NCBI GenBank assembly: GCA_011389575.1
Contig: JAABUB010000014.1
Coordinates: forward strand, 1 to 51,813
Source of the DNA: Desulfotignum sp.
GTDB lineage: Bacteria > Desulfobacterota > Desulfobacteria > Desulfobacterales > Desulfobacteraceae
Reading direction: 5' to 3'
Length of the DNA: 51,813 nucleotides
In this document: positions 15,429-51,058 of the stretch, in pieces
Numbering within the stretch: the first letter of the stretch is position 1
Layout of the letters: each line of letters begins with the position of its first letter
The notes under the pieces: model-generated
What the model was told of the DNA's origin: nothing
The model's database searches: none
The model's input: the letters and a program-made list of their open reading frames with translations, nothing else
Made by a program: the position numbers and the translations under genes

Positions 15429-15450
15429 AAAGCTCCTTTTCTTTCCGGAT

Positions 15451-17886: not shown

Positions 17887-19320
17887 TCAGTTGTGCACGG
17901 CATATCTCAGGCCGGTCGCCGTGACCCAGTCCTCAGGAGCCTGCATGAGTTTGCCCGGATTCAGGATATTGTTGGGGTCCAGTGCCTGTTTGATGGTCTG
18001 CAGCAGGCGGAGAGAATCGGCTTTTTCCATTTTAAAGGATTCTGCCTTGGACAGGCCGATGCCGTGTTCCGCAGAGGTGGTGCCGTTTACAGACCGCACA
18101 TATTCATAGATCTCGGTAATGGCTTTTTTGGCCGATGCCCACTGGTCTTCGCGGTTGGTATCCATGAGGATTTTGGTGTGCATGCATCCGGATCCGCAAT
18201 GGCCGTAAGCGGTCATGATGATATTGTTTTTCTCTGCCACTTCATGGATTTTGCCGGCCATTTCCGCCATTTTGGAATAGGGCACGGCCATGTCATCGGC
18301 CAGGGAGGTGGAGGACAGGCTGTCATCATATTTGGACAGGGCGGGAAACAGTTTTTTGCGGCCCATGAAGATTTTGGCCCGTTCCTTGGGGTCGTAGCTG
18401 GTCTTGATATCGCTGCCGTGGTGCTTTGTGCAGATCTCTTTCATTTTATTGATCTCATAGTCCACAGCTTCCTTGACCATGCCGTCCGCTTCAAAGATCA
18501 GGGAGGCTGCCACCTCCTTGAGCCCTAAGTTCATGGTCTTGTTCACCGCTTTGATGGCCACGGAATCCACCAGCTCCAGCATGGAGGGGGTGGCCCCTGA
18601 TGACATGATGGCTCCGATGGCGCCCCCGGCATGGGACAGGTCGTCGAAATTGGCAATGCCCATGCATCGGTATTCCGGGATGGGTACAAAATTGAGGGTG
18701 GCTTCCACCACAATACCCAGGGTACCTTCGGAACCCACCATGAGTTTGTGCAGCTGGTAACCCGAGGCCTCTACCCGGGTGTGGGCTCCTAAGGTCACAA
18801 GGTCGCCGTTGGGCATCACCACTTTCATACCCAGCACCGCATCCCTTGTGGCCCCGTATTTGACTGATCTCACCCCGGAGGCATTGTTGGCGATCTCTCC
18901 GCCGATGGTGGCAATGCGGGATGATGCCGGGGTGGGAGGATAAAACATGCCGTGGGGTTTGAGTGCCAGGTTCAGGTCATCATCCACCACGCCGGGTTCC
19001 ACCCGGCAGTAGACATCGGGCAGGTTGATCTCCAGAATCCGGTTCATGCGTTTCATGTCCAGAATAATGCCTCCCTGGATGGGAACGGTCTGGCCGCACA
19101 TGCCGGATCCCCCGCCCCTGGGAATAACCGGGATCAGGGCATCATTGGCATAGGCCATCAGTTTCTGCACCTGTTCGGTGGTATCCGGTCTGACAACCGC
19201 CCACGGCATGGCGTGGTGGACCGAGGAGTCAGACCCGAAGGCGTAAAGATCGGACGGGTCTGTTTTGACGTTGTTGTCACCGAATATTTCCCGTAATTTA
19301 GATTCGTCAACTGATTTCAT
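17887..19320 (-). CDS. FAD-binding D-lactate/glycolate-type dehydrogenase (GlcD family)
   Basis: 477 residues. The PCMH FAD-binding domain covers about 35-215 ('VIPRGGGSGMCGQTVPIQGGIILDM', 'VEPGVVDDDLN', 'GGEIANNASGVRSVKYG', 'LMVGSEGTLGIV'). The C-terminal FAD-oxidase domain ends with 'HGIGLSKAESF' and 'LDPNNILNPGK'. It oxidises D-2-hydroxyacids, most likely D-lactate given the adjacent LarA racemase. The start at 19320 follows AAGGGG; the ATG at 19344 has no ribosome site. Its electron partner is probably the Fe-S/MvhD protein encoded next. Confidence 0.9.
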   Translation of the reverse strand: MKSVDESKLREIFGDNNVKTDPSDLYAFGSDSSVHHAMPWAVVRPDTTEQVQKLMAYANDALIPVIPRGGGSGMCGQTVPIQGGIILDMKRMNRILEINLPDVYCRVEPGVVDDDLNLALKPHGMFYPPTPASSRIATIGGEIANNASGVRSVKYGATRDAVLGMKVVMPNGDLVTLGAHTRVEASGYQLHKLMVGSEGTLGIVVEATLNFVPIPEYRCMGIANFDDLSHAGGAIGAIMSSGATPSMLELVDSVAIKAVNKTMNLGLKEVAASLIFEADGMVKEAVDYEINKMKEICTKHHGSDIKTSYDPKERAKIFMGRKKLFPALSKYDDSLSSTSLADDMAVPYSKMAEMAGKIHEVAEKNNIIMTAYGHCGSGCMHTKILMDTNREDQWASAKKAITEIYEYVRSVNGTTSAEHGIGLSKAESFKMEKADSLRLLQTIKQALDPNNILNPGKLMQAPEDWVTATGLRYAVHN

Positions 19321-19335
19321 TGGTATCCCCTTTTG

Positions 19336-19379
19336 ATGAATCATTCATATTTCCTTGTTTAAATATGTTTAACCATATT
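19336..19379. promoter_or_regulatory. Two palindromes in the divergent region of dehydrogenase and corrinoid-activator genes
   Basis: ATGAAT-C-ATTCAT (19336-19348) and AATATG-N6-CATATT (19362-19379) lie just upstream of the dehydrogenase start. The first shares its ATGAAT half-site with the palindrome at 6428-6443. Candidate operators only. Confidence 0.35.
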
Positions 19380-19588
19380 AAAGATGGTATTTTGATGCCA
19401 AATATTTCATAATTCCATAAACCTGTATAAAATTCAATGTAATTTGACGGGCAAAATTCAAATAAATGGGTTTGTTCCTTGGCAAACCATTGGGTTGGGT
19501 TTATAATTGTCGTTGTTTGAACATACTGGCGGATGTTTTTGTCGCTTTTTCATACATTTTTACGCGTATTTTCAGGGAGGTTTTTGTC

Positions 19589-21523: not shown

Positions 21524-23058
21524 GCGGTTCCGGATATGTGCGCATCATCCGGATGATCCCACCGGCTCTGGGCAACAACACTGCGGATGTTCAACGTCTG
21601 GAGCAGGCCTTGAGAAAGGAGCTGGACACCGGGTATGTGCATGTTCCCTGGCACCTGGTGCCGGAACTTTCGGCCCGGCTGCGGGTCTGGGACTGGCAGG
21701 CAAAGGTGGTGCTGTTCAGGGACCGCCGGTCCCTGCGGGTGGTTGACCTGCTGGACCCGGCAGATTCCGCCCCGGTGTTGGGGGCGGCCCTGGATATCGG
21801 CACCACCCGCATGGTGATCTCCCTTGTGGATCTGGAGACCGGGGAAACGCTTGCCGAAACAGGTTTTGACAATCCCCAGGCGGATATCGGACCGGATGTG
21901 CTCACCCGGATTCACCATGCCCGGACCCCGGCGGGCCGGGCCCAACTCCAGGATCTGGCAGTGACAGCGGTAAACCGGCACCTGGCGCAATTGTGCAAAG
22001 AAAACAGGGCCGCGCCGGACCGGGTGTTTCTGCTGGCCGGGGCCGGCAATACCGCAATGACCCATCTGTTTGCCGGTCTTCCCGCCTTCGGGATCATCCA
22101 GGAACCCTATATCCCCTGTACCAATATTCCCGATACCCTTGCAGCGCAAAGGATCGGGCTGGTCATGCATCCGGAAGGGCAGGTGTTTTTGTTTCCCAAT
22201 ATCGGGTCTTATTTCGGCGGGGACCTGCTGGCTGGAATTCTGGCGGCGGACCTGGATCTTAAAGAGGACCCCTGCATCATGGTGGATGTGGGCACCAACG
22301 CGGAAATTGTGCTGGGCAGCAAAGACTGGCTCATGGCCTGTGCCGGGGCTGCCGGCCCGGCCCTGGAAAGCGGGGTCAGCCAGATAGGCATGACCGCAAA
22401 GCCCGGGGTGATCGACCGGGTGGCAGTGGATCCTTCTACCAGGGAACTGGTTATCCACACTATTGAAGACCAGCCGCCTGTGGGCATCTGCGGGTCCGGC
22501 ATGATCGATCTGGCAGCGGCCCTGTTTTTCACCGGTCGCATCGATATCCGGGGAAAGCTGGTGCCTGATGCCTGTGAAGGACGACTGAAGGACCAGGACG
22601 GGATCCCGGCATTCGTGCTGGTGGACGGGGCTGATTCCGGCACAGGAAACCCTATCTGTCTGTCCCAGGTGGACCTGAACTCCCTGACCAGTGCCAAGGC
22701 GGCCATGTACACCATCCTGGAGGTGATTGTGGCCCAGACCGCAGGCTTGGCGTTTGAAGACCTGGAGACATTTTATGTGGCCGGTACGTTCGGATCATTC
22801 ATCAACCCGAAATCCGCCATATCCATCGGTATGCTGCCCGATATCCCGGTGGATCGATTCCAGGTGCTGGGCAACACCTCCCTGAAAGGTGCCCGGCAGG
22901 TTTTGACCGATCCGGATGCCTTTGACCGGATCATGGCGGTTAAGGACACCATTACCTACATCGAGCTGAACGTGAACCAGTCTTTCATGACCCTGTTTTC
23001 CGGTGCCAAGTTCTATCCCCATACCGACCGCTCACGGTTTCCGTCGGTGCAGATCTGA
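21520..23058 (+). CDS. Second ASKHA-domain protein of the corrinoid-activator family, lacking the ferredoxin domain
   Basis: 512 residues, overlapping the preceding gene by four bases (ATGA). The first ~85 residues are unlike the ferredoxin domain and have no Cys cluster. From about residue 85 the ASKHA motifs repeat: 'AALDIGTTRMVISLVDL', 'LAGAGNTAMTHLFAG', 'MVDVGTNAEIVLG', 'GICGSGMIDLAAALFF' and 'YVAGTFGSFINPKSAI'. It is clearly a paralogue of the upstream RACo-like protein. The overlap suggests equal, coupled synthesis, possibly as a heteromer in which only one partner carries the 2Fe-2S centre. The target corrinoid protein is unknown. Confidence 0.88.
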   Translation: MSGSGYVRIIRMIPPALGNNTADVQRLEQALRKELDTGYVHVPWHLVPELSARLRVWDWQAKVVLFRDRRSLRVVDLLDPADSAPVLGAALDIGTTRMVISLVDLETGETLAETGFDNPQADIGPDVLTRIHHARTPAGRAQLQDLAVTAVNRHLAQLCKENRAAPDRVFLLAGAGNTAMTHLFAGLPAFGIIQEPYIPCTNIPDTLAAQRIGLVMHPEGQVFLFPNIGSYFGGDLLAGILAADLDLKEDPCIMVDVGTNAEIVLGSKDWLMACAGAAGPALESGVSQIGMTAKPGVIDRVAVDPSTRELVIHTIEDQPPVGICGSGMIDLAAALFFTGRIDIRGKLVPDACEGRLKDQDGIPAFVLVDGADSGTGNPICLSQVDLNSLTSAKAAMYTILEVIVAQTAGLAFEDLETFYVAGTFGSFINPKSAISIGMLPDIPVDRFQVLGNTSLKGARQVLTDPDAFDRIMAVKDTITYIELNVNQSFMTLFSGAKFYPHTDRSRFPSVQI

Positions 23059-35023: not shown

Positions 35024-36787
35024 TTATTTGCCTGATTCTGCGGCGGGAATGCCGTTTTCATCCCACCCCCTGAGGCGGTAATAATCCTGGACCAGTCGGG
35101 TGAGTTCTGATTCCGTGATGCCGTTGCCATCGGGGAGTTTTTCGGTGAGCAGGCGTTTGGGCAGAAAATCATCAGCTTTGGTCAAGCCTTCCTGCAGGTT
35201 GAACCGGCGGGTCAGGTCCGTTACCCGGGCGGCCGTCTCTGAGAGTTCCTCTTTGGACAGGTTTATGCCGGTGGCCATGGACACCAGGGCGGACAACTCC
35301 TCCCACGGGTAAAAATCCCGGTAGAAACGGCAGAGGATAAAGGTGTCGAACAGGGTGCACCGGTCCTCAAAATCCAGAAACATTTCAGCCTTGCCGTCTA
35401 TCTGTTCCGGGTCGATCATCCCGGCCAGCTCGGGCTTGTAAAAGGTACTGCGCAGATGACACGCACCCCGGGGGCTGACTGCATAGGCCAGGCCCATGCC
35501 TTTCAAAACTCTGGGGTCATACCCGGCCGGCTCCATGCCTTTGACATGTACGGCCAGGTCTGCCATGCCCATCTCCGGGGCTGCGGTTTTGATGCCGTCG
35601 GCCAGAAGACCGCCGAGCCCCTCCCGCCGGGCGATTTTTTCCAGCAGATCTGCCACGGCATCTGCATCCCCGTATGCCAGCGTTTCTTTGATATTTCCCC
35701 GGCCGGAGGCCTCGATGGCCAGGGCCGCCAGGTTGCCGGCGGTCATGGTGTCCAGTCCCAGGCGGTCACAGATATCATTGAGCCAGGTGATCTCTTCGAT
35801 GCTGTCGATCATGCACAGCCCGCCGAATGCATAAATGGTTTCATACTCCGGTCCTTCCAGTTTCAGTCCGGCATGGCGGCCTTCTTTGACCGTGACCAGT
35901 TTGCCGCATCCCATGAAACAGGTCTTGCAGGACCGGGGCCTGGCATCCATGTCTTTGGCCATGCGGGTGGCATTGATCTGTTCAAAGTGATCACAGCTGC
36001 CCCGGGACCAGTACCGGGCTGGAAACGCACCGGCCTTGTTCAATCCATCCACCATGACCGGGGTGCCCTGGCCCCGGTAGGTCCGGGTGGCCGGGTGCTG
36101 GTTCAGATCTTTGGCCATGGTCCTGGCGTATTGTTTCATGGCATCCGGATCATGGAAGGTTTTTTTCTGCTCCCCATGGAAGACCAGGGCCTTGATGTTT
36201 TTTGACCCCAGCACTGCGCCCATGCCGGTGCGGCCGGCGGACCGCCAGTAATCATTTTCAACCACGGCAAATTTCACCTGGTTTTCACCGGCCGGACCGA
36301 TAACCAGGGCAGCGGCATCTTTTTTTTCGCACAATGCCTTGACCGCGTCTTCGGTTTCATAGGTGTCCTTTCCCCACAAATTTTGGGCATCATGAAACAC
36401 TACGCCGGTGTCGCTGATCTCCAGCCAAACAGGACCGGCCGCCGCGCCTCTCACGAGCACCGCATCATACCCGGCACCGCTGATGGCGGGGGCGGCCCGG
36501 CCCCCGGAATAGCTTTCCGCATAGAATCCGGTCAGCGGAGACTTGGAAAAGATGCCGTACCGGCAACTGCCGTAAACCGGGCTGTCGGTCAAAGGCCCCA
36601 GCCCCACGATGAGGTGGTTTTCCGGTGCCAGGGGATCCACCCCGGGCGGATTGTATGTGAGCAGCAGATGGGTGGCCAGGCCCTTGCCCCCCATATACTG
36701 TTTGAGGATCGCATCATCGACCGGCACCACCTGTGTGGTTTGCGCTGTGACGTCAATGATGAGAATGCGGTTGAAAAAACCTTTCAT
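35024..36787 (-). CDS. aor: Tungsten-type aldehyde:ferredoxin oxidoreductase
   Basis: 587 residues, typical AOR length. The [4Fe-4S] ligands align with those of the Pyrococcus enzyme: Cys287, Cys290, Cys294 ('CKTCFMGCGK') and Cys486 ('DTFILCRF'). 'GPAGENQVKFA' and 'GRTGMGAVLGSKNIKA' are conserved bis-pterin regions. AOR oxidises aldehydes to acids and reduces ferredoxin. It follows the GABA aminotransferase by 94 bp on the same strand, so succinate semialdehyde is the most likely substrate; this is inference. The intervening 36811-36839 holds a CCGGCA/TGCCGG hairpin. Tungsten rather than molybdenum is inferred from the family. Confidence 0.92.
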   Translation of the reverse strand: MKGFFNRILIIDVTAQTTQVVPVDDAILKQYMGGKGLATHLLLTYNPPGVDPLAPENHLIVGLGPLTDSPVYGSCRYGIFSKSPLTGFYAESYSGGRAAPAISGAGYDAVLVRGAAAGPVWLEISDTGVVFHDAQNLWGKDTYETEDAVKALCEKKDAAALVIGPAGENQVKFAVVENDYWRSAGRTGMGAVLGSKNIKALVFHGEQKKTFHDPDAMKQYARTMAKDLNQHPATRTYRGQGTPVMVDGLNKAGAFPARYWSRGSCDHFEQINATRMAKDMDARPRSCKTCFMGCGKLVTVKEGRHAGLKLEGPEYETIYAFGGLCMIDSIEEITWLNDICDRLGLDTMTAGNLAALAIEASGRGNIKETLAYGDADAVADLLEKIARREGLGGLLADGIKTAAPEMGMADLAVHVKGMEPAGYDPRVLKGMGLAYAVSPRGACHLRSTFYKPELAGMIDPEQIDGKAEMFLDFEDRCTLFDTFILCRFYRDFYPWEELSALVSMATGINLSKEELSETAARVTDLTRRFNLQEGLTKADDFLPKRLLTEKLPDGNGITESELTRLVQDYYRLRGWDENGIPAAESGK

Positions 36788-36881: not shown

Positions 36882-38189
36882 TTATTTTTCCAAAGCCTTG
36901 AATCCAGCTTCCAGGATGGAAAGGCCTTTGTCAAGTTGTTCATCAGTGATTACAAAGGGCATAAGGGTCCGGATGACATTGCCGAAATTGCCGCAGGAGA
37001 GAATCACCAGCCCGTTTTCATAGCAGATCCGGACCAGTTCCTTGGCTTTTTCAGTAGCCGGTTCCTTTGTCTGACGGTCTTTGACCAGTTCCAGGGCCAG
37101 CATCGGGCCCTTGCCCCGGATCTCGCCGATGATCTCATGGCGGTTTGCCAGGTCGGTGAACCGTTTTTGCAGAATCTCTCCCAGCTCACGGGACCGTTCC
37201 AGCAGGTTGTCTTTGAACAAAATTTCCAGGACCGCCAGGGCCGCCTTGCAGGACAACGGGTTGCCGCTGTAGGTGCCGCCCAGACCCCCGGCATGGGGAG
37301 CATCCATCAGTTCTGCACGTCCGGTGACCGCACTCAGGGGCATGCCGCCGGCCAGGCTCTTGGCCTGGGTGACGATGTCCGGTTCAATGCCCCAGTGTTC
37401 GGATGCCAGAAATTTGCCGGTACGCCCGGCCCCGGACTGTACCTCATCCATGATCAGCAGGATGCCGTATTTTTTGGCGATGGCGGCCAGCTTCGGGAAA
37501 TATTCCGGGGGCGGGGTGATGAACCCGCCTTCCCCCTGGATGGGTTCGACAATGATGGCGGCACAGGATTCCGGGTCCACATGGGTGATGAAAGACGATT
37601 CCAGCAGGTCGGCACATGCGATGTCACAGGAAGGGTAGGTGCATCCCAGGGGGCACCGGTAACAATAGGCATAGGGGACCCGGTATACCTCCGGGGCAAA
37701 GGGACCAAATCCGTATTTATAAGGTTTGATCTTGCTGGTCAGGGTCATGGTCATCAGGGTCCGGCCGTGGAACCCGTTTTCAAAGGCGATCACCGCCGGC
37801 CGTTTGGTGGCGTACCGGGCTACTTTCACGGCGTTTTCAACCGCTTCAGCCCCGGAGTTGGCAAACATGGTTTTTTTGGGGAAATCTCCCGGCACCAGGG
37901 TATTCAGCTGCCGGGCCAGCTCGATATAGGATTCATACATGCCCACATGAAAGCAGGTATGGATGAATTGGTCTGCCTGGTCCTTGATGGCTTTGACCAC
38001 CTTGGGGTGGGCATGCCCCACATTGTTGACCCCGATGCCGCCGGCAAAATCGATGAATGTTTTGCCGTCTACATCGGTCATGGTGGCGCCGCTGGCTTTT
38101 GCGATGACAGCAGGGGTCAGGTTGGCAGGCCCCTGGGCCACGTGTGCCTGCCGGAGTTGGTTGAAATGTTCGGTTCTGGTGGAAGTCAT
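36882..38189 (-). CDS. gabT: 4-aminobutyrate aminotransferase-like class III transaminase
   Basis: 435 residues. The PLP lysine is Lys277 ('TQAKSLAGGMPLSAVTGR') and the ring-binding Asp is Asp248 ('IMDEVQSGAGRTGKF'). 'ENGFHGRTLMTMTLTSK' and the Cys-bearing 'YCYRCPLGCTYPSC' (about 175-188) are features of GABA aminotransferases. It would convert GABA and 2-oxoglutarate to succinate semialdehyde and glutamate. I start at the ATG at 38189 (GGAG upstream); the longer frame to 38408 runs through regulatory DNA. Transcription is predicted from the minus-strand sigma-54 promoter at 38270-38285, together with the AOR gene. Confidence 0.9.
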   Translation of the reverse strand: MTSTRTEHFNQLRQAHVAQGPANLTPAVIAKASGATMTDVDGKTFIDFAGGIGVNNVGHAHPKVVKAIKDQADQFIHTCFHVGMYESYIELARQLNTLVPGDFPKKTMFANSGAEAVENAVKVARYATKRPAVIAFENGFHGRTLMTMTLTSKIKPYKYGFGPFAPEVYRVPYAYCYRCPLGCTYPSCDIACADLLESSFITHVDPESCAAIIVEPIQGEGGFITPPPEYFPKLAAIAKKYGILLIMDEVQSGAGRTGKFLASEHWGIEPDIVTQAKSLAGGMPLSAVTGRAELMDAPHAGGLGGTYSGNPLSCKAALAVLEILFKDNLLERSRELGEILQKRFTDLANRHEIIGEIRGKGPMLALELVKDRQTKEPATEKAKELVRICYENGLVILSCGNFGNVIRTLMPFVITDEQLDKGLSILEAGFKALEK

Positions 38190-38269
38190 TATATTTCTCC
38201 AAAATATGGTATTGTATTTTTTCCCTGCAAGGGATTGATCTGAATCTGATAATCTGAAAGAATAATTAC

Positions 38270-38285
38270 AGCAAAACATATGCCA
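38270..38285 (-). promoter_or_regulatory. Sigma-54 promoter for gabT-aor
   Basis: Minus strand TGGCAT-ATGTT-TTGCT, one base from the consensus TGGCAC-N5-TTGCW, with correct GG-GC spacing. The predicted start is near 38258, about 70 nt before the gabT ATG. Confidence 0.7.
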
Positions 38286-38402
38286 GTCAGGGCATTTTTG
38301 ATAAAGCCCCTTTTGGACAAGGGCTTTGGCGGAAACCCGTCCCTGATGAATGCATTGCCGAAGGAGATAGCACTCTCTAAAATATATCAATTTTGCATAA
38401 AT

Positions 38403-38416
38403 ATGCATTTTTGCAT
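38403..38416. promoter_or_regulatory. Candidate activator site 1 (ATGC-N6-GCAT)
   Basis: ATGCATTTTTGCAT lies between the two divergent sigma-54 promoters and overlaps a second inverted repeat, TGCATAAATATGCA (38394-38407). Position about 120 bp from the left promoter and 160 bp from the right one suits an enhancer-binding protein. Confidence 0.6.
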
Positions 38417-41747: not shown

Positions 41748-42830
41748 ATGATGAATGATTTGAAACAACCAATGCAAGACGGGTACTGGATGCCGGGTGA
41801 ATTTGAACCCCACAAAGCCTGCTGGATGATCTGGCCGCAGCGGGGAGATACTTACCGCCTCAAGGCAGGGCCTGCCCAAAAGGCGTTTGTTGAAATTGCC
41901 AGGGCTGTTCTCCGGTTTGAGCCGGTAAATGTCTGTGTATCAAAAGAGCAGTTTGATCTTGCAAAAGACAGACTGCCAGGTCAGGTCAACCTGTTTGAAA
42001 TGGAATCGGATGATGCATGGGCCAGAGATACCGGTCCCAGTTTTATCATAAATCAAGACAGAAATGTCAGAGGCGTCAGCTGGAGGTTTAATGCCTGGGG
42101 AGGCATATTCAGCCCCTTTGACAAGGATGCGGCTGTTGCCGGTAATATTCTGGCACGTGAACAAAGATTGCAATATAATGCACCATTGATCCTTGAAGGC
42201 GGCTCCATCCATGTTGACGGTCAGGGCACCTTGATTACCACAGAAGAATGTCTGCTCAATCCGAACCGCAATCCGGATCTTACAAAGGAAGACATCGCGT
42301 CATATCTTAAAACGTATTTAGGCGTGAAAAAAATAATCTGGATAAAAAAAGGGGTGTTCCTGGATGAGACAGATGGGCATGTGGATAATCTATGCGCCTT
42401 TGCACGTCCCGGAGAAGTCGTTCTGACATGGACAGAGGATCAAACCGATCCGCAGTATGACATTTCAAGATACGCGTATGAAATTTTATCCAGAACAACC
42501 GATGCCCGGGGCAGGAAACTGAACGTTCATAAGATCCACCAGCCTGGTCCGCTTTTCATATCAAAAGAAGAAAGCCTGGGATTCGATGTGGTGGCGGGCG
42601 CAAAGGTGAGAAAAGAAGGGGATCGTCTGGCGGGGTCATATATTAATTTTTATATGCCCAACAACGGGATTGTCATGCCTTTGTTTGATGACCCCCATGA
42701 CCGTTGTGCCGTTGAAGCCATACAGAAAATTTTCCCTGAACGTAAGATAATCGGTGTTCAGACCAGGGAAATCCTGCTGGGAGGAGGCAATATCCATTGT
42801 TTGACTCAGCAGCAGCCTTTGTCTGCCTGA
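41748..42830 (+). CDS. aguA: Agmatine deiminase
   Basis: 360 residues of the agmatine/peptidyl-arginine deiminase fold. Active-site features are 'ESDDAWARDTGPSF' (Asp94 region), 'LEGGSIHVDGQGT' (Glu150), 'DETDGHVDNL' (His211) and the nucleophile Cys351 in 'GGGNIHCLTQQQP'. The 'ESDDxWxRDTGP' start motif is AguA-specific. It hydrolyses agmatine to N-carbamoylputrescine and ammonia in the cytosol. Two adjacent ATG codons begin the gene and the ribosome site is weak (GGAAA), so it may depend on upstream translation. AguB follows 32 bp later, giving the full two-step route to putrescine. Confidence 0.95.
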   Translation: MMNDLKQPMQDGYWMPGEFEPHKACWMIWPQRGDTYRLKAGPAQKAFVEIARAVLRFEPVNVCVSKEQFDLAKDRLPGQVNLFEMESDDAWARDTGPSFIINQDRNVRGVSWRFNAWGGIFSPFDKDAAVAGNILAREQRLQYNAPLILEGGSIHVDGQGTLITTEECLLNPNRNPDLTKEDIASYLKTYLGVKKIIWIKKGVFLDETDGHVDNLCAFARPGEVVLTWTEDQTDPQYDISRYAYEILSRTTDARGRKLNVHKIHQPGPLFISKEESLGFDVVAGAKVRKEGDRLAGSYINFYMPNNGIVMPLFDDPHDRCAVEAIQKIFPERKIIGVQTREILLGGGNIHCLTQQQPLSA

Positions 42831-42862
42831 AGATTGCATCAAATGCATAAAAAGGGAAACAG

Positions 42863-43741
42863 ATGAATCAGGTGACTGTAGCGGCAACGCAAATGGCCTG
42901 CAGCGATGATCGTAAAGAAAATATCGACCATGCTGAAAATCTTGTGGCAACCGCTTCAAAAAAAGGGGCACAGATTATCCTGCTGCAGGAGCTTTTTGAA
43001 ACCAGGTACTTCTGCCAGGAAGAGAAACAGGCGTATTTCAGGCTGGCAACTCCGCTTGAGAAAAATTCGACCATAAAACACTTTGCAAAAATTGCAAAAA
43101 AATTGGGAGTGGTGCTGCCCATCAGTTTTTTTGAACGGAAAAACAAAGCCTTTTACAATACAGTAGCAATGATTGATGCAGACGGAAGCGTCCTGGGTAC
43201 CTATCGCAAATGCCACATTCCGGATGGTCCGGGGTACGAGGAAAAATTCTATTTTAAGCCGGGAGATACAGGCTTTAAAGTCTGGTCCACAAAATATGCA
43301 AATCTCGGTGTAGGGATCTGCTGGGACCAGTGGTTTCCCGAAGCAGCCAGAATCATGGCACTCCAAGGGGCCGATCTGCTGTTATACCCAACAGCCATCG
43401 GATCGGAACCTGTGGATGAAACCAATGATTCAAAAAATCACTGGCAGACATGCATGCAGGGCCACTCTGCCTGTAACATGCTCCCTGTTATCGTATCAAA
43501 CAGGATTGGCACCGAGCAGTTTGACAACTCACAGATTACATTTTACGGTTCATCGTTTATCACCGATAATAAGGGGCAGATAGTTGCTCAGGCCGACCGG
43601 TCCAGCAAATCAGTCGTTACTGCGATATTTGACCTTGAACTGCACCGTCTCGAAATGGCAGCATGGGGCCTTTTCAGGGACAGAAGACCATCCCAGTACA
43701 GTCTTCTTCTCTCAAACGACGGTGAGGAGGAAATAGTGTAA
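42863..43741 (+). CDS. aguB: N-carbamoylputrescine amidase
   Basis: 292 residues of the nitrilase superfamily. The catalytic triad is Glu43 ('LLQELFETRYF'), Lys116 ('TYRKCHIPDGPGYEEKFYFKPGD') and Cys153 ('GICWDQWFPEAAR'). The 'KCHIPDGPGYEEKFYF' and 'TAIGSEP' segments are those of AguB. It releases CO2 and ammonia from N-carbamoylputrescine to yield putrescine. It immediately follows aguA. Confidence 0.95.
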   Translation: MNQVTVAATQMACSDDRKENIDHAENLVATASKKGAQIILLQELFETRYFCQEEKQAYFRLATPLEKNSTIKHFAKIAKKLGVVLPISFFERKNKAFYNTVAMIDADGSVLGTYRKCHIPDGPGYEEKFYFKPGDTGFKVWSTKYANLGVGICWDQWFPEAARIMALQGADLLLYPTAIGSEPVDETNDSKNHWQTCMQGHSACNMLPVIVSNRIGTEQFDNSQITFYGSSFITDNKGQIVAQADRSSKSVVTAIFDLELHRLEMAAWGLFRDRRPSQYSLLLSNDGEEEIV

Positions 43742-43863
43742 AGATGCCAATCTTGTCGGTTTTGTCAAAGCAGGGTTGATTCTATAACAGATCAACATGT
43801 GGTTTGGTCCGAATATTTCAAAAGAACATGAAAGTTAAAAAATTAGCTGTTTAAGGAAATTTT

Positions 43864-44838
43864 ATGAAAGTAAATGGGAATAAGATAACAAGCTTAGAAG
43901 GTGCTGTTAAGACCCATGTCAAAGATGGCTGCCATTTATCCATAGGTGGATTCACCATTAATCGTAATCCCATGGCCGCTGTATACGAGATCATCCGTCA
44001 GAAAACAAAAAACCTTCATCTTTATGCACATTCAAATGGGCAGGGTGCGGACGAGCTGATCGGTGCAGGTGCGGTTTCATGTCTTGAAATCGCCTACGGT
44101 GGAACAGGGAAGTTTGCAGCTACCTGTATACGGTTTAGAAAAGCGGTCGAGGAAGAAAAAATTCAGGTGGAAGATTATACAAACTATCAGATGACACTTC
44201 GGTTCCTTGCCGGATCCATGGGGGTCCCTTTTTTACCCTCTCGAACGTCTCTTGGGACAGATATCATTGAAAAATGGGGATTTGCGCCGGAATTCAGAAA
44301 CCAACAGCCCAACATCCCAAATAAAAAATTGGTAGTATTGGAAAATCCGTTTGATGACTGGTGTGACACAAAAAAAATAGTACTGGTTCCGGCTATTAAC
44401 CCGGATGTAACGATTATCCATGTCCAGAAAGCGGATTACAGAGGGAATTGCCGGATCGATGGATTGACCTTTGCCGACGTAGAACAGGCAAAGGCTGCCA
44501 GAACACTTATTATCACATGCGAAGAGCTGCTGGATGACGATTACCTGAAAAACCAACCGGATCGTAATCAGATTCCTTTTATACACGCTGATGCCGTCGT
44601 ACACATCCCGTATGGTGCATATCCAACGGCTTGCTATAAATATTATGATTATGATCCGGTTTTTTTAAAACAATACGCTGAATTGGCAAAGAATGAAGAA
44701 AAATATCAATCCTATCTTGAATCCATTTACAACAGAAAATCACACAGAGAGCTTCTTGATTTCGTGGGCAGGGGACGTCTTGAAATGATTAAAGCTGATA
44801 AAAACAGAGGGTATGCTGCAAAACTGGATAGAAGATAG
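43864..44838 (+). CDS. CoA-transferase subunit A (glutaconate CoA-transferase type)
   Basis: 324 residues of the family I CoA-transferase alpha chain, GctA-like. 'DGCHLSIGGFTINRNPMAAVYEIIRQ' carries the CoA-binding GGF motif, and 'PAINPDVTIIHVQKADYRGN' and 'VHIPYGAYPTACYKYYDYD' match GctA. It works with the beta subunit encoded 18 bp downstream. Substrate is not evident; in this operon it could activate 4-hydroxybutyrate, GABA-derived acids or glutarate-like acids. AAGGAA precedes the ATG. A 122-bp gap separates it from aguB. Confidence 0.88.
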   Translation: MKVNGNKITSLEGAVKTHVKDGCHLSIGGFTINRNPMAAVYEIIRQKTKNLHLYAHSNGQGADELIGAGAVSCLEIAYGGTGKFAATCIRFRKAVEEEKIQVEDYTNYQMTLRFLAGSMGVPFLPSRTSLGTDIIEKWGFAPEFRNQQPNIPNKKLVVLENPFDDWCDTKKIVLVPAINPDVTIIHVQKADYRGNCRIDGLTFADVEQAKAARTLIITCEELLDDDYLKNQPDRNQIPFIHADAVVHIPYGAYPTACYKYYDYDPVFLKQYAELAKNEEKYQSYLESIYNRKSHRELLDFVGRGRLEMIKADKNRGYAAKLDRR

Positions 44839-44856
44839 GACAGGGGTTGGAGAGAT

Positions 44857-45618
44857 ATGGATTATACGTTAAAAGAGATGATGGCTATTGTGGCAGCAAG
44901 GGAAATTCGAAACGATGATATCGTTTTCTGCGGAACAGGAATTTCCATGCTTGCAGCCATGGCAGCCAAAAATATCAATGCACCGGAAAGTGTTATTTTT
45001 TTTGAAACAGGGGCAATCGATTCAAAACTCGAGGATTTGCCGCTCGCGGTCGGGGACCCGAGAATCATGTATCAGTCTTCCTCCAACGGCGGTCTTTTGG
45101 AATCATTTGCCACCATGCAGAACCCGTTTACCGGTTCACACATCGTCGGGATACTCGGTGCGGCTCAAATTGATATATATGGCAACCTTAATTCTACGGT
45201 AATTGGCGATTATCATGCGCCTGATGTTAGATTTTCCGGTAGCGGAGGCGCTTGCGATGTGGCTTCTTTTGTTTCAAGGAGTATTATTTTCATGAAACAG
45301 GAAAAGCGAAAATTCAAGAATAAACTGGATTATTTGACGAGCCCTGGTTATCTGGATGGCCCTGAAGCGAGAAAAAAAGCAGGGCTTCCCGAAGGAGGTC
45401 CTGTCAGTGTTGTAACCGACATGGGGATGATGGCATTTGACAGTGAATCAAAAAAGATGTTCCTTAAAGGATATTATCCCGGTATTACCCCTGAAGAAAT
45501 TTTACAGAATATGGAATTTGAAATTGATGTGACCCGGGCGGAAGAAATCACGCCGCCTTCAGCCAATGAGCTTTCATTGCTGAGAGAAAAATGTGATCCC
45601 CATCGGCTGATTTTGTAA
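44857..45618 (+). CDS. CoA-transferase subunit B (glutaconate CoA-transferase type)
   Basis: 253 residues, GctB-like. The likely catalytic glutamate is Glu50 in 'VIFFETGAIDSK', at the position of Glu54 in the Acidaminococcus enzyme, and 'FSGSGGACDVASF' forms the conserved glycine loop. It forms a complex with subunit A. A truncated paralogue of the C-terminus lies at 51081-51323. GGAGAG precedes the ATG. Confidence 0.88.
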   Translation: MDYTLKEMMAIVAAREIRNDDIVFCGTGISMLAAMAAKNINAPESVIFFETGAIDSKLEDLPLAVGDPRIMYQSSSNGGLLESFATMQNPFTGSHIVGILGAAQIDIYGNLNSTVIGDYHAPDVRFSGSGGACDVASFVSRSIIFMKQEKRKFKNKLDYLTSPGYLDGPEARKKAGLPEGGPVSVVTDMGMMAFDSESKKMFLKGYYPGITPEEILQNMEFEIDVTRAEEITPPSANELSLLREKCDPHRLIL

Positions 45619-45657
45619 TAAAACCTAACCATTCAACATTCGAAAGAAAAAAAAAGA

Positions 45658-46452
45658 ATGAGCTTGGAACCATCCTTTTTTAAAAATCAGTTCGATTTTT
45701 CAGGTAAAGTCGCTATTATTACCGGGGGAAGTTCAGGTATTGGGTTTGAAACTGCGCGGATGCTTCTTGCCGGGGGTGCCAGGGTGCTGTTGACCGGTCG
45801 CGATGAAATCAAGGGGGAAAAAGCTGTCAGAAAATTGGGAAAAGGGCCATGTCAAAAAATCAATTTTCTTAAAGCAGATGTATCAAAAACAGGCCAGTGT
45901 AAAAAAATTATCTGCTCAACAATTGAACAATATGGTAAAATTGATATCGTAATCAACAATGCGGGTGTCTTTAAGGCAAATCCCATAGAAAATGTCACTG
46001 AAAAAGAGTTTGACTGGATCGTTGATACCAATTTAAAAGGTGCTTTTTTTATATGTAAATACGCTGTTCCTTATCTCAAAAAAAATAAGGCCGGTGCCGT
46101 CATTAATGTTTCTTCCGATGCCGGCCTGCAGGGAAATAACTTATCATCAGCTTATTGTGCCTCAAAAGGCGGCCTGACCATTTTTACAAAAGCTTTGGCA
46201 TTGGAATTGGCTTCTTATGGGATTCGTGTCAATTGTGTCTGCCCCGGGGATATTGCAACCCCGATGCTTGATAATGATCTTGAAACAAGAAGTGATTCAA
46301 AAAAGTATTTGAAAGCTTTGACAGAATCGTATCCGGTTGGAAGATTGGGACGTCCCGAAGAAGTGGCATCGGTTATTTGTTTTTTGGCATCCGGCGCATC
46401 TGGTTTTGTAACAGGTGCTGCCTGGTCGGTTGACGGTGGGATAACAGCCTAA
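45658..46452 (+). CDS. Short-chain dehydrogenase/reductase
   Basis: 264 residues, classical SDR. TGGSSGIG (22-29) binds the nucleotide, NNAG is at 100-103, the catalytic Ser is at 152/153, Tyr166 and Lys170 (YCASK). The tail 'GAAWSVDGGITA' is common in FabG-like enzymes. It oxidises or reduces an alcohol/keto or aldehyde group with NAD(P). As the last gene of the agmatine operon it might reduce succinate semialdehyde to 4-hydroxybutyrate, but classical SDRs act on many substrates and I cannot assign one. The ribosome site is poor. Confidence 0.88.
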   Translation: MSLEPSFFKNQFDFSGKVAIITGGSSGIGFETARMLLAGGARVLLTGRDEIKGEKAVRKLGKGPCQKINFLKADVSKTGQCKKIICSTIEQYGKIDIVINNAGVFKANPIENVTEKEFDWIVDTNLKGAFFICKYAVPYLKKNKAGAVINVSSDAGLQGNNLSSAYCASKGGLTIFTKALALELASYGIRVNCVCPGDIATPMLDNDLETRSDSKKYLKALTESYPVGRLGRPEEVASVICFLASGASGFVTGAAWSVDGGITA

Positions 46453-46498
46453 AAGATGATAAGCAGTATCCCAGGCAAGAAATCTGCTGAAAAATAAA

Positions 46499-46544
46499 AA
46501 AGAACCTGCGAGGTTGATATCAGCCTCGCAGGTTCTTTTTTTTT
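46499..46544. terminator. Bidirectional terminator between the agmatine operon and the fusion operon
   Basis: AAGAACCTGCGAGG pairs with CCTCGCAGGTTCTT around a 10-nt loop. Nine Ts follow on the plus strand, and the minus-strand side has a T-rich tract, so both convergent units can end here. Confidence 0.9.
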
Positions 46545-47088
46545 AACCCATATAATTGGTGGTTCGCGGCACCCTGACAGCTTCCTTGAGCAGATTTTCC
46601 GCCAGATTTCTGCGTTTTTGATCAGACCGTCCTTCGGTCTGTCTGTTTTTCATCTGCTGGCTGCGGAGTTTGCGCGAAATTTTGTCTGTTTCCTTGAATA
46701 CCAGAGCACCGAAGTTACATTCACCGACACAGGCGGGAGTCCCCCCGCAAAGGTCGCATTTGAAAGGTATGCCGGATTCATATTGCTCGATCATGCCATA
46801 GGGACAGGCAGATACGCATTCGCCGCAGCGAGTGCATTTTTTGATATTTATGGCAATGACACCCCGGTCATTTTTAATAATAGCCCCTTCCGGGCATGCG
46901 GTCATGCAGTCGGCATTTGGGCATTGAAAGCAGACACTGGGTACAGAGTAGCCCTCATGGGGGAAATTATTGATTTTCAGTCTGGCCCTGGACGGGATAA
47001 ACATCCCTTCCTTGACCGCTGAACAGGCATATGTGCACCGGTTGCATCCCGTACACCGGTTGGGGATGGCCAAAAGTACTTTTTCCAT
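46543..47088 (-). CDS. Four-[4Fe-4S] ferredoxin subunit, AorA/DmsB-like
   Basis: 181 residues. Sixteen Cys fall in four sets: 12/15/18/22, 53/56/61/65, 85/88/91/95 and 111/114/120/124, the pattern of HycB/DmsB-type proteins and of AorA, the small subunit of the Aromatoleum tungsten AOR. The C-terminal ~45 residues are basic and cluster-free. It follows the aminotransferase-AOR fusion by 15 bp, so it almost certainly takes electrons from that AOR domain. No flavin AorC-like subunit is nearby, so the final acceptor is open. Confidence 0.88.
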   Translation of the reverse strand: MEKVLLAIPNRCTGCNRCTYACSAVKEGMFIPSRARLKINNFPHEGYSVPSVCFQCPNADCMTACPEGAIIKNDRGVIAINIKKCTRCGECVSACPYGMIEQYESGIPFKCDLCGGTPACVGECNFGALVFKETDKISRKLRSQQMKNRQTEGRSDQKRRNLAENLLKEAVRVPRTTNYMG

Positions 47089-47103
47089 TGATTCGCTCCT
47101 TGT

Positions 47104-50100
47104 TTAATTGACATCCAAAAGATTGAGTTCCGACAGTTTTTCCGGGGTGGGCTGGCCCTGTTCGTCCCAGCCGCGCAAACGGTACAGCAGGGTTTTCATT
47201 TCAAGCAATGCATCTGCATCAAATTTTTTCCCTTCCCATGGTCCGTTTTGCAGGGTCTGATTCAGTATTTTTTCCGATACTGTATCCTGTGTCGCAGTGA
47301 AACCCGCCTGAACATTGAACAGACGAATCAAGTTCCAGATGCGTTCACCCGCCATATCCAGGTCTTTTGCCGAGATCTTTTTTCCCAGTCCTTTGGTGAG
47401 AAAATCTGCCATGATATTGGTATCTACGGTACCCCAGAAGTCACACAACCCCATGGAAAATTTAACCGCGTTCAAATTCTGGTTGTTCAAGACGGCATTG
47501 CTCATCTCTCTGGTTTTAAACGGTTCATCTTCAAACAGCGTATAGGATCTCAAATGACATGCCCCCCGTTCAGATGTGGCATATCCCAAAGCCATCCCAT
47601 AGTTCCCCCGGGGGTCATACCCTGGCAGCTCGAGATTTTTGGAGTGGGCGGCCATGTCCGCGGCATTGTATTTGGCTGCCAGTTTTCCTGCACCGAGTGC
47701 CATTTGTTTTGCCCGTGGGGTGGAAAGGGTGGCAATCTCCTTTATCAGGGCAAGATATTGCTCTGTGTTTCCAAAGGTAACCCCAAGGTCGCATTTGCCT
47801 GATTCAGTCAGGTCCATGGCCAGGCCAATGATAGCACCGGTGGACATGGTGTCCAATCCGAAATCGTCACACAGCCGGTTAAATTTCATCACCGATTCAA
47901 GATCATCGATTTCGCAGTTGGAACCCCCAAGACACAGGGTTTCATATTCCGGCCCTTCAATTTGTGTGCCGTTGAGAGAGGTGAATTTGCCGCATCCCAT
48001 TGGACAGGAAGCGCATGACCGGTCCCCGATTTTTATATCGTCAATGGCGTCTGTGTTCAGTTTCAGGCGACCGTTGCTGACACCTCTGGTAAAGTTCCGG
48101 GTGGGATGGATGCCCATTTCATTGGTGACATCCATCAGAACCGGCGTGCCATTGGATTTTGCCCACATGTTGGCATCGGTCAGCAGGTTGTTGGCGGTAT
48201 GCTCTGCCACTTTTTCATAAAAGGCACCGATCTCATTGACCTGAACTCCACCGGTTCCCCTGCAGGCAATGGCTTTGAGATTTTTGGATCCAAACAGGGC
48301 CCCGGCCCCGCCCCGTCCCATCTGACGGTAGGATTCAGAGCCAACGCAGGAGAATTCGATAAGGTTTTCCCCGGCAGGGCCGATGGACAATGTTTTTGTT
48401 TCGGCATCCACCTGGTTCTTCAACCATACTTCTGTGTCAAAAATGCCTTTCCCCATGACCGGACCGGCATCTTCCAGAGATACGATATTGTTTTCTATTC
48501 TCAGGTAGACGGGTTTGTTGGAACTGCCGGTTATCATGATGCCGTCATAGCCGGCAAATTTGAGTTCCGGCCCGAAAGATCCGCCGATATTGGACTCAAA
48601 AATCGTTCCGGTTTTTGGAGACTTGGAAACCAGACAGGTCCTGGCAGAGGTCGGCACCAGGGTGCCGCAGACAGGACCGGTCATGATAACAATGGCATTT
48701 TCTTTAGACAGCGGATCGATCTTGGGATCAATGGTATCATACAGGTATTTGGCAGCCAGTCCCCACCCACCGATGTATTCATCACGTAATTTTTGAGGAA
48801 TGGTTTTGGATGTAATTTCCTGTGTGCTCAGATCCACATGAAGCATCTGACCGGTATACAGGTATTCATTGGGCTTGCCCTTGGGAAGCTCAATGGATTT
48901 AAACACATCCTCGATGCGGTTCAGAGCCTCATCCAGGATTTCCCAGGGCGTATTTAAGGCCGGTTCAAACCGGATGTTTTTGGCATTGGTCAGGGTACCG
49001 GCAGTGATGACCCCTCTTGAAAACAGGCCGGATGCTACTTTATAGCCAATGCCGTCGGTGTGAAACTCCATACCTAGCAGCAGGCCCAGGCCCCGCTTAT
49101 TTGCAAGTATCCCCGGATATCTTTCCTGGAGTTCACCCAGTTTTTCAAGCACATATTCACCCTTTTTTTTTGCCTGACCTGCCAGGTCTTCCTCTAAGAG
49201 AACGGATATGGCGGCAAGGGCGGATGCACAGGCAAGTGGATTGCCGCCAGTGGTGGTGGTGTGCATGAAAGGATTGGGCTCCATGCATTGCCAGATTTCG
49301 GGCGTGGACATGAATGCGGACATGGGAACAACCCCCCCACCCAAGGCTTTTCCAAAGCACATGATATCGGGTTTTACATCCCAGTGATCCACGCCGAAAA
49401 TTTCTCCGGTCCGGCCGAATCCGGTCTGCACTTCATCTGCAATGAGAAGAACACCGTAATGGTCACATAATGCACGGACACCGGGAAGATAGTCATCCGG
49501 CGGCACAATGGCACCGGCTTCACCCTGGATCGGTTCCAGCACCACTGCCGCGATGTCATCCCCCACAGCCCTGGCAGAGGCCAGTTCCTGTTCCAAGGCT
49601 TTAAGATTTCCGAACGGTGCCTGGCGCACGCCTTCCAGAAGCGGGAGCAACGGTTTTCTGAAGATATTTTTCCCCATCAGGGACAATGACCCCAGAGTTT
49701 TGCCATGAAAGCCTTTGAGCATGGAGATAAACCCTTTTTTTCCGGTATAGAGTTTGGCCAGTTTCATGGCACCTTCCACGGCTTCGGTACCGGAATTGGC
49801 AAAAAATCCGTACTGGATTTTGCCAGGGGTCAGCAGGGCCAGCACTTTGGCAAGCTGAGCCCTTAACGGATCCAGCATCTCCTGGCTGTACTGTGGGGAG
49901 CGGTCCAGCTGGGATTTTACAGCAGCCACAATTTTGGGGTGACGGATGCCATAGGAATACAGGCCGAAGCCCCCCAGCAGATCCAGAAATTCCCGATCCA
50001 GTGCATCCACCAGGATCGAACCCTTACCTGTCCATTCTGTAACAGCAAATCCCGTAGCTTCAGTGACCGATTTCCGATAGTCAAGAAATCCTTTGTTTAT

Positions 50101-50271
50101 GTGATCGCGAAAATTGCGCACAGTTTTTTTGGATATCTCGGCTCTGGTTTCAAGGGACACTTTCTCAGTGGGGGTGAGAATGATATCCACGATGCCGTCC
50201 ACCTCTTTTCTGGCGGCTTCCATATCCCGAAGTTTATAGTCATCCGGATGATATTCGTCTATGTCGATCAT
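47104..50271 (-). CDS. Putrescine aminotransferase-aldehyde:ferredoxin oxidoreductase fusion
   Basis: 1055 residues with no internal stop. Residues 1-~462 are a class III aminotransferase very like E. coli PatA ('NKGFLDYRKSVT', 'SQEMLDPLRAQLAKVLALLTPGK', 'NSGTEAVEGAMKLAK', 'HTTTTGGNPLACASALA'). Asp279 ('ADEVQTGFGRTG') and the PLP lysine Lys308 ('CFGKALGGGVVP') are intact. After a short linker ('LPKGKPNEY', near 48890) a full AOR domain runs from ~468 to 1055 with cluster ligands Cys753, Cys756, Cys760 ('CASCPMGCGK') and Cys943 ('MGLCDFWG'). The predicted activity is putrescine -> 4-aminobutanal -> GABA within one chain. I start at 50271, nine bases after AAGGAGGG. The AOR domain is a paralogue of 35024-36787. 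Confidence 0.9.
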   Translation of the reverse strand: MIDIDEYHPDDYKLRDMEAARKEVDGIVDIILTPTEKVSLETRAEISKKTVRNFRDHINKGFLDYRKSVTEATGFAVTEWTGKGSILVDALDREFLDLLGGFGLYSYGIRHPKIVAAVKSQLDRSPQYSQEMLDPLRAQLAKVLALLTPGKIQYGFFANSGTEAVEGAMKLAKLYTGKKGFISMLKGFHGKTLGSLSLMGKNIFRKPLLPLLEGVRQAPFGNLKALEQELASARAVGDDIAAVVLEPIQGEAGAIVPPDDYLPGVRALCDHYGVLLIADEVQTGFGRTGEIFGVDHWDVKPDIMCFGKALGGGVVPMSAFMSTPEIWQCMEPNPFMHTTTTGGNPLACASALAAISVLLEEDLAGQAKKKGEYVLEKLGELQERYPGILANKRGLGLLLGMEFHTDGIGYKVASGLFSRGVITAGTLTNAKNIRFEPALNTPWEILDEALNRIEDVFKSIELPKGKPNEYLYTGQMLHVDLSTQEITSKTIPQKLRDEYIGGWGLAAKYLYDTIDPKIDPLSKENAIVIMTGPVCGTLVPTSARTCLVSKSPKTGTIFESNIGGSFGPELKFAGYDGIMITGSSNKPVYLRIENNIVSLEDAGPVMGKGIFDTEVWLKNQVDAETKTLSIGPAGENLIEFSCVGSESYRQMGRGGAGALFGSKNLKAIACRGTGGVQVNEIGAFYEKVAEHTANNLLTDANMWAKSNGTPVLMDVTNEMGIHPTRNFTRGVSNGRLKLNTDAIDDIKIGDRSCASCPMGCGKFTSLNGTQIEGPEYETLCLGGSNCEIDDLESVMKFNRLCDDFGLDTMSTGAIIGLAMDLTESGKCDLGVTFGNTEQYLALIKEIATLSTPRAKQMALGAGKLAAKYNAADMAAHSKNLELPGYDPRGNYGMALGYATSERGACHLRSYTLFEDEPFKTREMSNAVLNNQNLNAVKFSMGLCDFWGTVDTNIMADFLTKGLGKKISAKDLDMAGERIWNLIRLFNVQAGFTATQDTVSEKILNQTLQNGPWEGKKFDADALLEMKTLLYRLRGWDEQGQPTPEKLSELNLLDVN

Positions 50272-50399
50272 TTGGGGTAGCCCTCCTTTTTTGGTTTTAA
50301 TCCTCACCTTTTCGTTATTGTTTTAACTGGTAAAAACGACTTCCGTTAATCCATGAAGTTCAATTAATGAAATGTGAAGCTTATTTTTCATATATCGTC

Positions 50400-50496
50400 T
50401 CGATTAATATAATATGATTCGAAAGTCAACAATTTTTTTTATTATCTGTTCGATTAATTTATATCAACAGTTGATAATCGAATAATCGATAATCGA
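50400..50496. promoter_or_regulatory. Array of TCGATTA half-sites between the fusion gene and the Lrp-type regulator
   Basis: TCGATTAAT occurs at 50400-50408 and 50450-50458, and its reverse form ATAATCGA at 50474-50481, 50482-50489 and 50489-50496. Five related half-sites, some 50 bp apart, in the AT-rich divergent region suit an Lrp/AsnC octamer that wraps DNA. The rest of 50272-50590 is AT-rich with no gene. Confidence 0.65.
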
Positions 50497-50590
50497 ACTT
50501 GTCTTTTGAGATCCGTCATGATATGTGGGATACGCCATGAAAGCAAAGACAAAAAAATATAAACAGTTATTTTATATTACTTCTTGATAT

Positions 50591-51058
50591 ATGAATGGAG
50601 AGTGCGCGTTGAATCTACCAGTTGATGCTATAGATACCCAAATCATTCAGATGCTGCAAAAGAACGGCCGGATGCCGAATACTGAAATTGCCAAACAATT
50701 AAAACTTTCTGAAACTGCCATCCGAAAACGGTTGAAACGCCTGCTTGAAGATGAAATTATTCAGGTTGTGGCGGTGGTAGATCAAAAAAAACTCGGATTT
50801 GTTTTCAGGGGCAACATCTGCCTGAAGGTTGATATTAAAAAAACAGATGCCGTGAAAAGAGCACTCCAGAAAATCGACCGGATCTGGTACATTGCACATC
50901 TGACAGGCGCCTTTGACTTTGATGTGGAGTTCAGTGCAAAATCCCAGGATGAATTGCGCATCCTTATCGAACAGATAAACAAAATTAATGGGGTCCTCAG
51001 CACGGATATTTCCATCCGGCTGCAGTTAGTCAGAAACCGTAACGACTGGGAAAAATAA
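50591..51058 (+). CDS. Lrp/AsnC family transcriptional regulator
   Basis: 155 residues. The N-terminal HTH ('AIDTQIIQMLQKNGRMPNTEIAKQLKLSETAIRKRLKRLLEDEII', about 13-57) and a C-terminal ligand-binding RAM-type domain (about 70-145) fit the family. It diverges from the aminotransferase-AOR fusion and is likely to control it in response to an amino acid or amine. The start is uncertain: the ATG at 50591 has no ribosome site, while a TTG at 50609 lies six bases after GGAGAG and may be the true start (149 residues). Confidence 0.88.
   Translation: MNGECALNLPVDAIDTQIIQMLQKNGRMPNTEIAKQLKLSETAIRKRLKRLLEDEIIQVVAVVDQKKLGFVFRGNICLKVDIKKTDAVKRALQKIDRIWYIAHLTGAFDFDVEFSAKSQDELRILIEQINKINGVLSTDISIRLQLVRNRNDWEK

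Follow-up and report, generated by a model that had tools for sequence, protein, structure and literature searches.

In Escherichia coli, the putrescine aminotransferase PatA (YgjG) acts together with PatD, and the second step falls to an aldehyde dehydrogenase (ALDH) linked to nicotinamide adenine dinucleotide (NAD) on a separate protein. Here we describe a gene in a 51,813-nucleotide stretch of Desulfotignum sp. DNA (contig JAABUB010000014.1 of assembly GCA_011389575.1, hereafter the window) that joins a PatA-like aminotransferase to a complete aldehyde:ferredoxin oxidoreductase (AOR) in one chain. The fusion shares pocket residues, fold and 47-48% identity with YgjG (structural alignments) and would be expected to catalyse the same first reaction; in contrast to the PatA/PatD pair, the AOR for the second step lies in the same chain. 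Aromatoleum aromaticum AorABC (8c0z) is related to the second half, with 35% identity and matching catalytic residues Glu331, Tyr443 and His464, and its AorA subunit to a polyferredoxin encoded beside the fusion (8c0z_C, E 6.2e-26). However, AorABC has no aminotransferase and carries a flavin adenine dinucleotide (FAD) subunit, AorC, for NAD reduction, whereas a scan of 8 proteins at 41748-51058 found no AorC-type subunit. Among solved structures, the electron-bifurcating tungsten aldehyde oxidoreductase 9mqx gives the best match to the AOR half (chain D) as well as to the polyferredoxin (chain E, 2.1e-29), but it lacks a transaminase domain, and the genes scanned next to the fusion showed no bifurcating module. 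PtTamH resembles the fusion in joining a transaminase to an aldehyde-handling redox domain, but that domain is a thioester reductase and, according to PMC9594044, the enzyme is NADH-dependent and biosynthetic. PigE (4ppm) likewise holds a class III transaminase inside a larger protein (its model has 837 positions) and matches the transaminase half in fold, although its partner region and its product, the prodigiosin precursor MAP, differ. We found no description of this architecture, or of an AOR acting on putrescine or polyamines, in the literature searched, with subscription papers mostly outside its scope; a tungsten-enzyme review from 2025 (PMC12096430) uses none of the words "fusion", "fused" and "aminotransferase" in its main text. 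The fusion is a new architecture built of known families, and automatic annotation may well hold such proteins without comment.

From sequence and gene order, we propose with a probability of about 0.83 that the fusion is a bifunctional putrescine-to-GABA (4-aminobutyrate) enzyme, replacing the pair of PatA and NAD-linked PatD/aminobutyraldehyde dehydrogenase. Its N-terminal pyridoxal phosphate (PLP) half would transfer one amino group of putrescine to 2-oxoglutarate, yielding 4-aminobutanal in equilibrium with 1-pyrroline, and its C-terminal tungsten-pterin half would oxidise the hydrated aldehyde to GABA. The two electrons would then pass from the AOR [4Fe-4S] cluster through the polyferredoxin of the next gene to ferredoxin or another low-potential carrier. 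Such a pathway could be fed from agmatine by AguA and AguB and continued by a GABA transaminase and a second AOR. The gene and its immediate partner are laid out as follows, pLDDT being the predicted local distance difference test score of the structure model.

47104-50271, minus strand: PatA-AOR fusion gene, 1055 residues (open frame, Pfam, conservation in relatives)
50282-50287, minus strand: AGGAGG, putative ribosome-binding site for the start codon at 50271
48904-50031, minus strand: Aminotran_3 (class III aminotransferase) domain, residues 81-456, with PLP lysine Lys308 (Pfam, 309 bits)
48853-48903, minus strand: segment linking Aminotran_3 to AFOR_N, residues 457-473, pLDDT below 50 at 463-467, in frame in 19 aligned fusions
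48253-48852, minus strand: AFOR_N domain, residues 474-673 (Pfam, 244.1 bits)
47119-48180, minus strand: AFOR_C domain, residues 698-1051, with Cys753, Cys756, Cys760, Cys943, Glu777, Tyr885 and His906 (Pfam, 346.2 bits)
46543-47088, minus strand: AorA-like polyferredoxin, 181 residues with 16 Cys, 15 nt after the fusion stop and with its own AAGGAG

The frame runs from the ATG at 50271 to a stop ending at 47104 with no internal stops, and the plus strand is full of them. An alternative start, GTG at 50307, would lengthen the protein to 1067 residues, but the AGGAGG 10 nt before the ATG favours 50271; the start column of this Met is shared by 17 of the 19 aligned fusions, one other beginning 9 residues earlier by open reading frame (ORF) call and one being shortened. 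A separate internal start for the AOR half was rejected, as Met476 is variable (M, V, L or I) and by eye no clear ribosome-binding site precedes it. All three domain scores lie far over the Pfam cut-offs, and the alignments cover 1-199 of the 199 positions of AFOR_N and 12-385 of the 385 of AFOR_C, placing the protein in the AFOR family. An AlphaFold2 model from an alignment of 101 rows, which replaced an earlier 46-row model (mean pLDDT 75.5, poor transaminase half), reached a mean pLDDT of 89.5, with both domains mostly well modelled except for residues 1-10 and 463-467. Foldseek matched its AOR half best to 9mqx_D, 9g7j and 1aor and its transaminase half best to YgjG (4uoy/4uox), and no Protein Data Bank chain spanning both halves was among the best 50 of 1826 matches, judged by alignment length.

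The active-site residues checked in both halves are all present. Lys308 aligns with the PLP lysine of YgjG, and the fusion scores 633.6 bits against the NCBIfam putrescine aminotransferase model NF008570 (cut-off 612). We took the pocket residues of YgjG from PMC4244111 and mapped 16 positions onto the 19 aligned fusions: all 16 hold the same residue in the window's protein and 14 are invariant throughout, including Gln119, Lys183, Glu243, Lys300, Phe327, Leu419 and Arg426 (19 of 19), the variable two being Phe91 (F in 15, Y in 4) and Thr332 (T in 18, P in 1). According to the same source, Lys183 of YgjG takes the position at which AcOAT, OAT and GABA-AT have an Arg that binds a carboxylate; the counterpart of Lys183 in the window's fusion, Lys191, is invariant among the 19, and by eye the translations read FHGK in the fusion against FHGR in the window's own GABA transaminase. 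The PLP lysine, the putrescine-site residues and the Lys-for-Arg replacement of PatA/YgjG are therefore all present, supporting a transaminase half of PatA type with predicted activity on putrescine. In the AOR half, Cys753, Cys756, Cys760 and Cys943, which we take to be the iron-sulfur cluster ligands, are invariant in 19 of 19 fusions and fall in columns that are also Cys in 1aor. PMC10413684, a study in which the Aromatoleum AOR was produced in Aromatoleum evansii, gives Glu331, Tyr443 and His464 as catalytic residues of AorB; their counterparts, assigned from the alignment by hand, likewise do not vary among the 19 fusions. The half scores 221.3 bits against a cut-off of 868 for NF007354, presumably the model for YdhV-type AORs, and we infer that its metal is tungsten, though molybdenum is conceivable. 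A first-pass annotation made from the letters of the window had called a 1055-residue frame joining a PatA-like aminotransferase with PLP Lys308 to an AOR with all four cysteines, meeting near 48890, and each of these points is borne out, the junction falling in the stretch at 48853-48903; it had not given the strand, which is minus.

The fusion recurs well beyond this contig, in sulfate-reducing bacteria. Single-frame copies turn up in 8 of the 86 family genomes, counting its own and one that a contig start cuts short; in 21 of 389 genomes from the order, again counting its own, along with one truncated copy and two that begin at a contig start; and in 3 of 395 genomes from a phylum set, its own among them. 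These genome sets overlap, ORF calls on the retrieved loci confirmed the frames, and the E-value limits of 1e-100 or 1e-120 mean that weaker fusions can be missed. Beyond the 8 family genomes, one more (G065) holds a 98%-identical piece with the AOR end only. A scan of named genomes with two 8-residue PatA patterns, which misses fusions lacking those patterns, returned 69 loci, 23 of them with the fusion. Nineteen of these 23 are 1051-1063 residues long, two (L089, L094) are cut by a contig start, L128 has a shorter start (987 residues) and L099 is truncated at 844. The record titles name metagenome-assembled genomes (MAGs) of Desulfotignum, Desulfobacula and Desulfosarcina, an Olavius associate, and MAGs labelled Desulfobacterales, Desulfobacteraceae, Deltaproteobacteria or Proteobacteria; no cultured strain carrying the fusion is among the 69 loci. 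Four records are chromosomes: CP070652 and CP070746 with full-length fusions, CP070697 with the shorter start and CP070694 with the truncated form. In the last (the bin60 chromosome, L063/L099) the fusion ends at 844 residues with no polyferredoxin within 700 bp, possibly a decayed gene or a sequence error.

Further candidates proved not to be fusions. A second, divergent form (~32-36% identity, matches over both domains) resolved on ORF calling into adjacent but separate transaminase and AOR genes, matches in G387 (41%) and G185 (51%) were a PatA and an other-clade AOR in separate genes (L065, L064), and a 1535-residue frame in G555 was, by its ORFs, three genes for PatA, an agmatinase-like protein and AOR.

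Both halves of the fusion are under strong purifying selection. The ratio of nonsynonymous to synonymous substitution rates (dN/dS) against the nearest relative, a genus mate, was 0.025 for the transaminase half and 0.074 for the AOR half, and against five other relatives 0.023-0.032 and 0.061-0.085, with AOR-half dS saturated in 2 of the 5. The window is one of the 163 contigs of a genome that is 83% complete, which might invite the suspicion that the fusion is an artefact of assembly or annotation, or that its junction was misread. That explanation is hardly credible, since the same frame recurs across the family, the order and the named loci, excluding chance and the junction frameshift that would have undone the first-pass annotation; the junction is shared by many separately named assemblies, single-record chromosomes among them, and the linker length differs between assemblies by a whole codon.

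In trees of both halves, built by a quick method without PatA pieces of at most 300 residues (L144, L146) and AOR pieces under 400 (L099, L126), the fused forms are one clade. Fused rows lie on one side of one branch in the transaminase tree (24 of 69 rows) and in the AOR tree (23 of 62 rows), each with a Shimodaira-Hasegawa-like approximate likelihood ratio test (SH-aLRT) value of 99. The first-pass annotation recognised the architecture but missed its unfused relatives. Among the 69 named loci, 11 hold PatA with a separate AOR of the same clade and 13 with a separate AOR of another clade; 20 hold PatA without an AOR nearby and 2 were scored as none. Same-clade pairs read PatA-AOR-polyferredoxin in L097, L098 and L114 (the ORFs of L098 abutting), AOR-polyferredoxin-PatA in Geobacteraceae and Desulfuromonadales (L108, L113, L117, L134) and PatA-agmatinase-like-AOR-polyferredoxin in Desulfacinum infernum (L119), where the agmatinase-like gene (PF00491) between PatA and AOR scores under both agmatinase cut-offs. 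Named strains with split pairs are Geomonas paludis Red736, Desulfacinum infernum DSM 9756, Desulfopila aestuarii DSM 18488 and Desulforhopalus singaporensis DSM 12130. As AORs of two unrelated clades stand beside PatA, the simplest reading is that one such pairing became the fusion.

What the AOR replaces can be seen where it is absent. Of the 20 PatA loci with no AOR nearby, 8 have an aminobutyraldehyde-dehydrogenase-like gene on the same strand within ~1.8 kb; these genes are 64-100% identical to that of locus L110, which scores 656.8 bits against the aminobutyraldehyde dehydrogenase model NF010000 (cut-off 615). Applied to the fetched flanks of the 23 fused loci, this comparison gave no such ALDH. 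Among split loci, L122 has an ALDH only 31% identical to that of L110, and L073 a 66% piece ~3.4 kb off. Within one genus (g4) of the window's family, 8 genomes have a full-length standalone PatA, each with an Aldedh match lying 35-273 bp away from such a gene, and 0 of these 8 has the fusion. Gene order thus supports the view that the AOR occupies the place of a 4-aminobutanal dehydrogenase beside PatA. Since the loci form a series of ALDH partner, separate AOR and fused AOR (8 of 20, 24 and 23 loci, respectively), the fusion probably stands in for PatD/aminobutyraldehyde dehydrogenase, as the first-pass annotation had suggested. This swap is the best evidence for a function leading from putrescine through 4-aminobutanal to GABA with electrons going to iron-sulfur proteins. 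A fusion 84% identical to the window's was also found in a genome assigned to genus g4 (L086, contamination estimate 9%), of which eight other genomes carry PatA with ALDH; it reflects either transfer or misbinning.

The gene following the fusion, which the first-pass annotation overlooked, points to where the electrons may go. The polyferredoxin is homologous to the iron-sulfur subunits of AOR complexes, and this homology together with its 16 Cys places it with AorA as a polyferredoxin with four [4Fe-4S] clusters. An AorA-like homologue lies 7-606 bp downstream in 22 of the 23 fusions, the exception being the truncated L099. The window's polyferredoxin ends in VRVPRTTNYMG, and 21 of the 22 fusion-adjacent polyferredoxins have a tail that fits the pattern (V/I)P(R/K)(T/S)xxY(M/L), the last (L093) reading RVPRTTG and then being masked. 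The tail was found in 0 of 10 polyferredoxins beside unfused same-clade AORs and, by eye, in none of the four homologues from L080 and L081, loci without a PatA close by. One guess is that the tail has a docking role; as the fusion is one clade, a fusion-specific tail may also be a single coincidence.

Elsewhere in the window are genes that could supply and continue such a pathway, among other features.

41748-42830, plus strand: agmatine deiminase AguA (TIGR03380, 527.9 bits, cut-off 381.8)
42863-43741, plus strand: N-carbamoylputrescine amidase AguB, putrescine-making (TIGR03381, 449.3 bits, cut-off 410.25)
36882-38408, minus strand: GABA transaminase, the next step after the fusion (TIGR00700, 561.6 bits, cut-off 506.65)
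35024-36787, minus strand: separate AOR beside the GABA transaminase
50591-51058, plus strand: Lrp/AsnC-type regulator, divergent from the fusion
14064-15428: PF07992 flavoprotein, 31 kb from the fusion
11807-12637, plus strand: TupA-like tungstate-binding protein (355.7 bits, under the cut-off of 400)

The pathway in the window would run from agmatine through N-carbamoylputrescine, putrescine, 4-aminobutanal, GABA and succinate semialdehyde to succinate, with both aldehyde steps carried out by AORs; the AOR at 35024-36787 is presumed to oxidise succinate semialdehyde. This second, unfused aminotransferase/AOR pair had also escaped the first-pass annotation. The adjacency of GABA transaminase and AOR recurs in a number of fetched relatives, and those AORs form one tree branch; about ten further AOR-family loci were seen in the window's genome. 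Farther off, two tandem RACo-type ASKHA ATPases at 19466-23058 (plus strand) overlap by 4 bases, with a 2Fe-2S domain in the first and not the second, and at 14064-19344 (minus strand) a flavin oxidoreductase, a LarA-like lactate racemase, an FlpD/4Fe-4S protein and a GlcD-like FAD oxidase stand side by side as a possible lactate oxidation module.

Several results weigh against a putrescine-to-GABA function coupled to ferredoxin. The fusion scores 491.9 bits against 658.65 for the narrower putrescine aminotransferase model TIGR03372, which also excludes both standalone PatAs scanned (495 and 483.5 bits); we therefore call it PatA-type and not a TIGR03372 member. An AguA-like gene is present in the fetched flank of 8 of the 23 fused loci and in that of none of the other 15, some on short contigs. 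Pot-like transporters lie near some fusions, but only 1 of 3 ATPases scanned exceeds the cut-off of the PotA model TIGR01187, and the 3 Pot-like binding proteins near PatA loci fall far under those of PotD and PotF (0 of 3). As the Pot and agmatinase support thus lies under several cut-offs, our confidence is slightly lowered. In a search for RnfC, every match fell short of the cut-off. While no PF00171 ALDH was found in the window's 83%-complete genome, the seven other fusion carriers found in the family hold 2-9 PF00171 genes each; lack of an ALDH as the cause of the fusion was therefore rejected. We consider it improbable, all the same, that the main substrate of the fusion is a different amine (cadaverine, or an N-substituted or longer diamine), giving a different amino-aldehyde: PMC4244111 reports that YgjG accepts cadaverine too, and the TIGR03372 score and the flanks lacking AguA would fit, yet the putrescine pocket is conserved and agmatine-to-putrescine genes are found in the window and several relatives, as are Pot-like transporters near some fusions. 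A reverse reaction, in which the AOR half would reduce GABA to 4-aminobutanal with low-potential electrons for the transaminase to make putrescine, appears very unlikely. Acid reduction is known for AORs, and PtTamH, another transaminase fusion, is biosynthetic (PMC9594044, as above); however, the neighbourhood here makes putrescine from agmatine and uses up GABA, and in some unfused relatives the AOR is replaced by an aminobutyraldehyde dehydrogenase, which we read as oxidative.

Within the putrescine-to-GABA reading, what physical joining adds is less certain. The two halves may merely be co-produced or co-localised, with the aldehyde or pyrroline diffusing freely and no kinetic effect of fusion, a view we hold at a little under even odds. 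PatA and AOR are separate genes in many relatives, the linker is partly of low confidence in the model, and the predicted template modelling (pTM) score of 0.64 is too low to fix the relative domain orientation, a point that counts against the main reading too; on the other side, the fusion has been retained across many genera under strong purifying selection, and the partner protein's tail is seen only beside fused forms. The more ambitious alternative is a GABA-forming putrescine:ferredoxin oxidoreductase, in which 4-aminobutanal would be passed internally before cyclising, the electrons would exit through the polyferredoxin subunits, whose tail would dock onto the transaminase or the domain interface, and a single assembly would oxidise the amine at ferredoxin potential. 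We regard this full version as possible but doubtful; hand-off of the aldehyde between the halves and capture of its electrons as low-potential reductant are hypotheses, and any benefit of coupling is one that we infer.

To conclude, the natural series of ALDH partner, separate AOR of two unrelated clades and fused AOR would allow the effect of joining two steps across an unstable aldehyde to be measured directly, and the fusion is a candidate biocatalyst for aminoaldehyde oxidation or, in reverse, for acid-to-amine conversion. To our knowledge, few AORs have a firmly known physiological substrate; if the bifunctional putrescine-to-GABA reading is true, 4-aminobutanal would be a likely one for this AOR. 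Anaerobes carrying the fusion would then draw from amines, as low-potential reductant, electrons that are otherwise passed to NAD.

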